Source of the DNA: SAR86 cluster bacterium
GTDB lineage: Bacteria > Pseudomonadota > Gammaproteobacteria > Magnimaribacterales > Magnimaribacteraceae
Length of the DNA stretch: 64,000 bases
Direction of reading: 5' to 3'
Assembly: GCA_029268615.1 (NCBI GenBank)
Contig: JAQWNM010000010.1
Span: forward strand, 62,001-126,000
Shown piece after piece: positions 44,203 to 47,880 of this stretch (position 1 is its first letter; the number at the start of each line of letters is the position of its first letter). The notes under the pieces were generated by a model. That model worked only from the letters and a program-made list of their open reading frames with translations. It made no database searches and had not been told where the DNA came from. A program made the position numbers and the translations under genes.

Positions 44203-44279
44203 GGCTATGTAGCTCAGCTGGTTAGAGCGCGGCATTCATAATGCCGAGGTCGGTAGTTCAAGTCTACCCATAGCCACCA
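44203..44279 (+). tRNA. tRNA-Met, elongator (anticodon CAT)
   Basis: Acceptor GGCTATG pairs with CATAGCC and ACCA is encoded. The anticodon arm CGGCA-TTCATAA-TGCCG gives CAT. The fully paired 1:72 end and the overall likeness to the elongator tRNA-Met (GGCTAxGTAGCTCAG start) separate it from the initiator at 53801. 77 nt. Confidence 0.95.
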
Positions 44280-45109: not shown

Positions 45110-45138
45110 AAAAAAAAGGCACCTCTTGGTGCCTTTTT
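45110..45138 (-). terminator. Intrinsic terminator after the small membrane-protein genes
   Basis: GGCACC (45118-45123), loop TCTT and GGTGCC (45128-45133) form a stem extended by flanking A and T runs. On the minus strand the stem is followed by a T-run. It lies about 14 bases past the stop of the small gene at 45152; the symmetric A/T flanks could allow use in both directions. Confidence 0.85.
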
Positions 45139-45151
45139 AAGGTTGAATAAA

Positions 45152-45382
45152 CTAGGAACGATTATTCCAATAACCTAAAATAATTATCAAAGCAATTACA
45201 ACTCCTAACCCTTCAGAGCCCAGGGTATCTATAATTGGTTTAATATTATCTAGAACACCACCAAAAAATGGAGTTCCTGGTCCAAATAGTACTGAAACTA
45301 GTAATGCTACAGAAACAACTAAGGACAAAACCTTAGTAAGTTCCCATAACCAATCACTTATTCTATTAATTAAATCTGACAT
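45152..45382 (-). CDS. Small two-helix membrane protein A (unknown; paralogue of the next gene)
   Basis: I do not recognise this 76-aa protein. It has two hydrophobic helices (about residues 15-33 and 57-70) joined by a loop FGPGTPFFGGVLDN...DTLGSEGL. The same loop pattern FGxGxPFxGGVLDN and DTLGxxGL occurs in the adjacent small gene, so the two are paralogues. A very strong ribosome binding site (GGTGGAGGT, 4 bases from the ATG) suggests high translation. A hairpin precedes it and an intrinsic terminator follows. No signal peptide, cysteine or catalytic-type residue is evident. It could be a holin-like, pore-forming or scaffold protein; nothing decides this. Confidence 0.75.
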   Translation of the reverse strand: MSDLINRISDWLWELTKVLSLVVSVALLVSVLFGPGTPFFGGVLDNIKPIIDTLGSEGLGVVIALIIILGYWNNRS

Positions 45383-45400
45383 ACAACCTCCACCTATTAG

Positions 45401-45433
45401 AAAAAAGAAAGGGGTACCCTAGGGCCCCCTTTC
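45401..45433 (-). terminator. Hairpin with U-tract between the two small genes (terminator or attenuator)
   Basis: On the minus strand GAAAGGGG (45433-45426) pairs with CCCCTTTC (45414-45407), with an inner CCC/GGG pairing in the loop, followed by six T. It lies 22 bases after the stop of the upstream small gene and just before the ribosome binding site of the downstream one. No separate promoter fits in the 73-base gap, so the second gene probably depends on read-through. Confidence 0.75.
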
Positions 45434-45455
45434 AAGTAATACCGGTGTAAAAGAC

Positions 45456-45674
45456 CTAGTTATAAAGATCTAACAATACCGCTAAAACAATAAGTCCTAT
45501 AAGTCCGTTAGCACCTAAAGTGTCAACAAGAGCTAGAAGGTTATCTAGAACTCCGCCGACAAAAGGTACTCCTGAACCGAAGACCACACCAGCAGCAACT
45601 CCTAATCCAACAAGAGCAACTACTATGCCTGTAAGCGATCCGATGATATCTCTAAGAGAATTTAATGCATTCAT
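45456..45674 (-). CDS. Small two-helix membrane protein B (unknown; paralogue of the previous gene)
   Basis: 72-aa hydrophobic protein, unrecognised. Helix 1 is at about residues 15-33 (glycine- and valine-rich), helix 2 at about 56-70, and the loop FGSGVPFVGGVLDN...DTLGANGL matches its neighbour at most positions. There are few charged residues outside the ends. A moderate ribosome binding site (GGGTG) precedes the ATG. It lies 124 bases downstream of pnp on the same strand; I found no convincing promoter in that gap, so it may be transcribed from pnp or from a promoter I missed. Confidence 0.78.
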   Translation of the reverse strand: MNALNSLRDIIGSLTGIVVALVGLGVAAGVVFGSGVPFVGGVLDNLLALVDTLGANGLIGLIVLAVLLDLYN

Positions 45675-45798
45675 TTTTCACCCATAATATTTAGCTAAAC
45701 AAATACTTAGATTAATATCTAAGTAAACCCATTAGAACCCAACCAGAGAACTATAACAACATTGGACTAACACAAAAAGGTCAAAGACACAAATATAA

Positions 45799-47880
45799 TT
45801 ATTTCTCAATTCCTTTCATGGTTAAACGAATTTTACCTCTTGAGTCTACTTCTAAAACTTTAACACTAATTTTTTCACCTTCGGTTAAAACGTCTGTAAC
45901 TTTTTCAACTCTTTCTTCTGAAATTTCTGAGATATGAACCAATCCATCCGTATTTGGTAGAATTGTTACAAAAGCTCCAAAATCAGTAATTTTTGCAACT
46001 TTTCCTTCATAGATCTTATTCACTTCTGGACTGGCAGTAACTTCTTCTACTCTCTGTACAGCTAATTCTCTTGATTTAGCATTATCACCATAAATTGTGA
46101 CTCTTCCATTATCATCAACATCTATCAAAGTTTCTGTTTCTGATGTTAATGCTCTTATAGTGTCACCACCTTTACCTATCAGATCTCTAATCTTTGACTT
46201 GTCAATTTGTAAAACTACTGCCTGAGGTGCTTTATCAGAGAGAGTGGCTTTTGATTCAGTTATTGTTTCATTCATGTTCTCAAGAATATGAATTCTGGCT
46301 ACCTGTGCTTTCTCTAAGGCTACTTCAAAAATTTCTTCAGTTATACCATCTATCTTTATATCCATTTGAAGAGCGGTTATACCTTCAGAAGTTCCTGCTA
46401 CCTTAAAATCCATGTCTCCTAAATGATCTTCGTCTCCTAATATATCTGTTATGACAGCAAAGCCTGAATCTTCTTTCACCAAGCCCATAGCTATACCTGC
46501 AACTGCTGCTCTTATTGGTACCCCCGTATCCATTAGTGCTAGACTAGAACCACAGACTGAGGCCATTGAACTGGAGCCGTTAGACTCTGTAATTTCAGAA
46601 ACTACTCTAATAGTATACGGGAAATCTTCGGGGTCTGGCAGCACTGCTTCCAATGCTCTTCTGGCTAATTTACCATGACCTATTTCCCTTCTTTTTGGTC
46701 CAGCTAAAAATCCTGCTTCTCCTACAGAGTAAGGTGGGAAATTATAATGAAGCATAAATTGATCTTTAAATTCTCCCTCTATAGCATCAATTATCTGAGC
46801 TTGTTTTGGAGATCCTAAAGTTGTAACCACTAGTGCCTGGGTTTCTCCTCTTGTAAATAAAGCTGACCCATGAGTATTTTTTAAAACACCAATCTCTGAA
46901 TATAATTGCCTAACTTGATCTAAATCTCGTCCATCTATCCTAGGCTCTCCATTTATAAGTCTAGTTCTGACAATACTCTTCTCAATTTTCTTAAAGGCAT
47001 CTAATAGATCTGAATCAGTATACTCAGAATCTTCAGAAGAAAGATTTTGAAGAATTTCTTCCTTAATTTCATTAAGTTTCTGGACCCTAGCTTGCTTTTC
47101 TTTAATTGAATATGCGTCAGTTATCTTTGCTTCAAAAGATTCAGTAACTTTTTCTATAAGTTCGTTTGTTATTTCTTTAGATATATACTCAACATCTGGT
47201 TTTCCTATTTCAACAGCCATTTCTTTAATTGCAGAGATAACAACCTGCATCTCTTTATGAGCAAATAATATCGCTCCAAGCATTTGGCTTTCTGATAATT
47301 CTTTTGCTTCTGATTCAACCATAATTACTGCTTTATCACTAGCTGCAACCACCATATCCAAGTAAGAATTCTCTAATTGACTCCTTTTAGGATTAAGTAC
47401 GTACTTCCCTTCTATAAAACCTACTCTTGCAGCTCCCAATGGACCATTAAATGGAAGCCCGGAAATAGCAATAGCAGCTGAAGCGCCAAGAAAAGCAACT
47501 ACATCAGGATCTGTATCTTTATCTGCTGAGATGACAGTGCAAACAACTTGAACTTCATATAGAAAATCATTATTAAATAAAGGTCTCAAAGGTCTATCAA
47601 TGAGTCTAGAAGTTAAAGTTTCTTTCTCTGTAGGTCGACCTTCTCGTTTAAAGAAACCTCCTGGAATCTTTCCAGTAGAATAAGTCTTTTCTATGTAATT
47701 TACAGTTAATGGGAAAAAATCTTGGTGTTCTCCTGGTGCTTTGCCTAGAACAACAGTTGCAAGAACTTGTGTATTGTCGCAAGTGACTAGAATTGAGCCA
47801 GTTGCTTGTTTAGCAACTCTACCGGTCTCAAAAGTTACTTCTTTATCACCGAAGAGTATTGTTTTTTTGTATGCTTTCAT
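45799..47880 (-). CDS. pnp: Polyribonucleotide nucleotidyltransferase (PNPase)
   Basis: 3'-5' phosphorolytic exoribonuclease of the degradosome. Two RNase PH domains, with [27 protein letters not shown] in the first and [24 protein letters not shown] and [19 protein letters not shown] in the second, are followed by a KH domain ([15 protein letters not shown], near residue 560) and an S1 domain (about 622-690). Length 693 aa. It follows rpsO, as in E. coli. Confidence 0.98.

Follow-up and report, generated by a model that had tools for sequence, protein, structure and literature searches.

The tandem genes A and B encode two small paralogous membrane proteins that form a new protein family of a recognizable kind, that of small zipper-bearing membrane hairpins, lying outside the named families. 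Our working hypothesis, to which we give an even chance of being correct, is that the two proteins are subunits of a single inner-membrane oligomer, B being the minor and A the major component, and that a leaky terminator keeps A in excess. The SAR86 and SAR92 bacteria are common in the surface ocean and have small genomes, yet they have kept this unnamed pair almost without exception, and a near-core membrane module that is unnamed in any family library constitutes a real gap in knowledge of these cells. Within the window (the whole 64 000 nt stretch of DNA that was analysed) the genes and their ribosome-binding sites are located as follows.

45799–47880: pnp, upstream of A and with the pair downstream of it; PNPase domains by Pfam
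45679–45683, minus strand: ribosome-binding site of A, GGGTG (GGGTGA), read in the sequence; GGGTGA is conserved
45456–45674, minus strand: gene A, encoding a two-TM protein of 72 aa with a glycine zipper, G25xxxG29xxxG33, in TM1
45387–45394, minus strand: ribosome-binding site of B, GGTGGAGG, read in the sequence
45152–45382, minus strand: gene B, encoding a paralogue of A of 76 aa with small-xxx-small-xxx-G at the positions of the TM1 zipper of A

The preliminary description of this DNA had reported adjacent paralogous ORFs of 76 and 72 codons, specifying tandem two-helix membrane proteins, one of the genes having strong ribosome binding. The ORFs are present as claimed, with 27 of 69 residues identical between A and B (39 %, E = 2e-16), both products are predicted helical hairpins, and good ribosome-binding sites precede both genes. 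They are the only two copies of the family in this genome of 1.77 Mb. A lack of homologues anywhere had been named as a reason to doubt the genes, and homologues were found: with A as the query, matches were present in 49 of 61 relatives, among them 15 of 17 genera and, of the 26 high-quality genomes from the SAR86 order, 24. Since the two genes are adjacent in nearly every carrier, and since pairwise dN/dS values of approximately 0.05–0.3 indicate purifying selection, A and B are genuine genes and not chance ORFs. A search of the literature on SAR86 and SAR92 'omics found no transcript or protein record of either. Codon usage is uninformative on the expression of A and B here, because that of the ribosomal-protein genes is indistinguishable from that of the other genes in this genome.

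Distribution, descent and gene neighbourhoods

The tally obtained with A was identical to that from a profile search built on 20 sequences, and the wide conservation within one clade that had been named as a check is borne out by the presence of the pair in nearly all high-quality genomes of the SAR86 order. The pair is not indispensable, as it is absent from a complete genome of the order (G036). The closest named relatives of the genome of the window are SAR86 cluster records, with 79–86 % identity for A. Tandem pairs 50–66 % identical to A also occur in SAR92/Porticoccaceae, A-like genes are present in Woeseia-like gammaproteobacteria, and more distant pairs were found in G398 and in G161/G277, the second gene of the latter having a longer loop. 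A sample of the class gave matches in 11 of 369 genomes, three of these belonging to the SAR86 order and some of the matches being weak, and a sample of the phylum gave two weak matches beyond the genome of the window itself. In family f112 the A-like gene is present once, twice or three times, flanked by a ubiA-like and a dapD-like gene, and no B is adjacent. In G437, of this family, there are three tandem A-like copies (L119:1492–2554), and the near-identity of the first and third suggests that a duplication or gene conversion took place recently.

In a tree of 91 sequences the deepest split, which is weakly supported (88/45), separates the A from the B sequences of SAR86 and SAR92, and the more distant pairs of G398 and G161 cluster apart from these. 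B is an old duplicate, and A and B are ancient paralogues. In the B half of the tree SAR92 nests with SAR86 family f1 (100/95), which suggests transfer between the SAR86 and SAR92 lineages, a reading to be taken with caution given the few columns of the alignment.

In families f1 and f2 the pair comes after pnp, but its neighbours are unrelated genes in families f3 and f4 and also in SAR92, where at least two different arrangements occur, and no constantly linked partner gene was found among the SAR86-family and SAR92 neighbourhoods compared. The special link to pnp that the preliminary description had entertained is therefore not upheld, the pair having in addition its own conserved upstream region, and the varied gene context rules out pnp as a functional partner. 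This same variability of context suggests that the A/B module is a self-contained unit.

Two neighbouring genes in other genomes may be mentioned. A third gene adjoins the pair in a SAR92 genome (L069:5759–6085) and encodes a protein of approximately 105 aa with a family-like turn (DGLPVVGGYITTILGNL); it gave no family match and is absent from the genome of the window. The second gene adjoining the A-like gene in a Woeseia-like genome (L080:5319–6005) specifies two TM segments separated by a predicted coiled coil of approximately 150 residues. Its identification as a B with a coiled-coil insert stands as a lead only, since the match to B was weak and split (E = 2–9 at Z = 5000).

Protein anatomy and comparison with known systems

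No credible match was found in Pfam for A, B or 20 relatives, and NCBIfam, PHROG, PADLOC and PDB sequences gave no credible match for A or B, so that the earlier statement that they fit no known family stands. Fold searches returned no structural match to either protein; a single row proposing PSII PsbZ as the fold of B (E = 8.4) was dismissed as noise. SecE/SecG, ATP synthase subunit c and known holins had already been set aside on motif, and the family models agree. Only one of the 20 relatives matches SecG, at E = 0.13, subunit c gave no Pfam match to A, B or the 20 relatives, no Asp/Glu is conserved in TM2, and MscL gave no family-model match for A, B or relatives. The best PHROG holin match has E = 0.12, and this weak match, with the size and hydrophobicity of the proteins, is what could recommend a holin, or another membrane protein of a mobile element, that the host took over from a phage or such an element. 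We find such an origin scarcely credible, as the pair shows vertical, order-wide conservation and housekeeping neighbours, and as searches of phages, plasmids and viral contigs gave no match, on which ground a viral, phage or plasmid origin was rejected.

The models of A (pLDDT 75, pTM 0.41) and B (pLDDT 81.5, pTM 0.49), both of moderate quality, are helical hairpins. In the preliminary description the helices diverge around a nearly invariant loop, to which a function was ascribed. This pattern is seen when A is compared with B, but not within either type: among A-type proteins (n=29) entropy is lowest in TM1, at 0.67 bits, with the loop at 0.95, and among B-type proteins (n=25) the loop, TM1 and TM2 are about equal (0.99, 1.02 and 0.90 bits). 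In A (n=29) conservation is highest over the last part of TM1 together with the turn (GVAAGVVFG..PFVG), and the proposed functional loop must be widened to include both, and with them the glycine zipper. The GxxxGxxxG zipper is present in TM1 of 35 of 45 A proteins, the remainder having Ala, Ser or Asp at one position, and nearly all B proteins have Ala/Ser/Gly at the first two zipper positions and G at the third. In distant relatives position 29 of the zipper is Glu, Asp or Gln.

The mean net charge of the loop is −2.6 in A and −2.3 in B, and this acidic loop is probably periplasmic. The tails of B, with mean net charges of +1.3 and +1.6, fit an N-in/C-in protein with a periplasmic loop. Those of A average −0.3 and +0.6, and its topology is uncertain because the N-terminal tail is not basic (mean −0.33); the same N-in/C-in arrangement with a periplasmic loop is likely for A by homology only.

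The turn FG.PF.GG is conserved across both A and B, and could be a docking site if the two were small regulatory or stabilizing proteins attached to some larger membrane complex whose genes lie elsewhere, as many small membrane proteins of bacteria are. The small size of A and B, their variable context and their want of linked partner genes would suit such a role. We regard accessory proteins of this kind as the main rival to a shared major/minor assembly, and as rather unlikely: conservation in A is strongest in the zipper, and the order-wide retention of two paralogues with a conserved attenuator suggests a fixed A : B relation.

MscL and ATP synthase subunit c are glycine-zipper oligomeric membrane proteins and, like A and B, small two-TM hairpins, in which a zipper of small residues could let identical subunits pack together. 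A and B differ from them in having no sequence match to either, no conserved carboxylate in TM2 and a gene context that is not theirs. The two hydrophobic helices and short turn of A and B are shared with pilins of the VirB2/TraA type, and the major/minor logic, together with one weak pilin-like match in NCBIfam (E = 0.029), would allow A and B to be the major and minor subunits of an extracellular fibre. This we consider very unlikely, given that the neighbourhoods of the pair that were read hold no type IV secretion genes and that the proteins have no recognizable signal peptide and no Pfam match.

Glycine zippers are known in transmembrane and oligomerizing proteins, and the nearest system in outline is Cdz of Caulobacter, in which CdzC and CdzD, small glycine-zipper proteins of 86 and 84 aa, form a two-protein contact-dependent surface bacteriocin (PMC5380434). 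Two small tandem genes for glycine-zipper proteins are common to both, and A and B might by this analogy kill neighbouring cells on contact. The Cdz system is, however, defined by exporter and immunity genes (PMC5380434), whereas neither a type I exporter nor an immunity gene lies beside the pair in the neighbourhoods read, and no exporter leader was recognized. Mature Cdz proteins are 75 % Gly, Ala, Val and Ile (PMC5380434), as against roughly half, by eye, in A. With the pair near-universal in the SAR86 order as well, a bacteriocin of this kind seems to us very unlikely.

Hairpins and putative leader of the transcript

Four elements of the transcript lie around the two genes.

45675–45798, minus strand: stretch preceding A and lying 3' of pnp, with conserved blocks; putative 5' leader and separate promoter
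45704–45725, minus strand: stem-loop in the putative leader of A; the stem is kept at the site with a different sequence in SAR86 family f1
45407–45433, minus strand: terminator-like hairpin between A and B, with a U-tract at 45401–45406
45115–45136, minus strand: hairpin 3' of B that resembles an intrinsic terminator, with a U-tract behind it

A hairpin with a U-tract had been reported after each gene, and both were found. The hairpin after B departs clearly from what its composition would give by chance (z = −3.98), and a terminator-like hairpin follows B in family f1 and most SAR92. That after A (spacer GAAAGGGGGCCCTAGGGTACCCCTTTC, then TTTTTT) does not stand out when this genome is taken by itself (z = −0.71), but relatives have kept it. 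A hairpin of −9 kcal mol⁻¹ or better with a T-rich tail occurs in 44 of 51 distinct A–B spacers, compared with 104 of 1530 dinucleotide shuffles of those spacers (6.8 %), the 51 spacers being related by descent and thus not 51 independent tests; the remaining seven have no strong hairpin. The consensus stem from 22 SAR86 and SAR92 spacers has eight pairs, two of which show two-sided compensating changes. For the hairpin after A, a predicted, conserved attenuator between the two genes is the better reading.

The 124 nt upstream of A contain blocks conserved across family f1, including the stem-loop and the GGGTGA ribosome-binding site, and may be read as the pair's own putative promoter and leader. 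Rfam contained no relevant family for the locus. A tRNA gene is located downstream of the pair (window 44203–44276), with ychF on one side and an alpha/beta-hydrolase-like ORF on the other.

Termination within an operon that reduces a downstream subunit has a measured precedent in an archaeon (PMC10450193). As in A/B, the terminator there lies between genes of one transcription unit; the differences are that this case is archaeal and its termination was measured, whereas A and B are bacterial membrane paralogues with a terminator predicted from sequence.

Candidate assembly and variants of the family

From charges and models, A and B would each be a helical hairpin with both ends cytoplasmic and the short acidic loop periplasmic. 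The TM1 glycine zipper of A would pack neighbouring copies into a homo-oligomer, which B, with Ala/Ser/Gly at the zipper positions, may join as a minor subunit or cap. The pair has its own conserved upstream region, strong ribosome-binding sites and a terminator-like hairpin in the spacer, so that the majority of transcripts would end behind A, with fewer reading through to B. No dedicated partner genes would be needed for the assembly to act as a small pore or, in a less specific reading, as a membrane-organizing scaffold. Oligomerization, the A : B ratio and this final function, whether pore or scaffold, are all points that we infer.

The order-wide presence of the pair in SAR86 and its presence in SAR92, the purifying selection, the varied gene context, the separate A and B clades, the small residues at the zipper positions of both proteins, their acidic loops, the hairpin in most A–B spacers with its compensating changes and the conserved upstream blocks speak for a shared assembly. 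Against it are the lack of a fold match, the moderate models, the literature search that found no transcript or protein record, the N-terminal tail of A that is not basic, family f112 with no adjacent B, the variation at position 29, the 7 of 51 spacers with no strong hairpin and the absence of the pair from G036. It is tempting to go further and to envisage a two-component inner-membrane assembly that is near-core in the envelope of surface-ocean bacteria, has its subunit ratio set by a leaky terminator and moves between SAR86 and SAR92 as a two-gene unit, a fuller picture that we offer tentatively and with more doubt than confidence. The conserved attenuator makes the major/minor ratio directly testable in existing metatranscriptomes and metaproteomes.

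Other members of the family depart from the simple hairpin. Four SAR86 proteins of 112–118 aa (L139:2994–3344, L140:3033–3392, L141:3185–3523 and L142:3383–3769), detected by profile, are distant paralogues of A and B in which the N-terminal half resembles the A/B hairpin (..VLFSPDIRGNFVGLVSALLDRGLVG..) and an extra TM segment is present at the C terminus. A B-like protein in G285 (L108:4587–5135) carries a long Lys/Thr-rich C-terminal tail.
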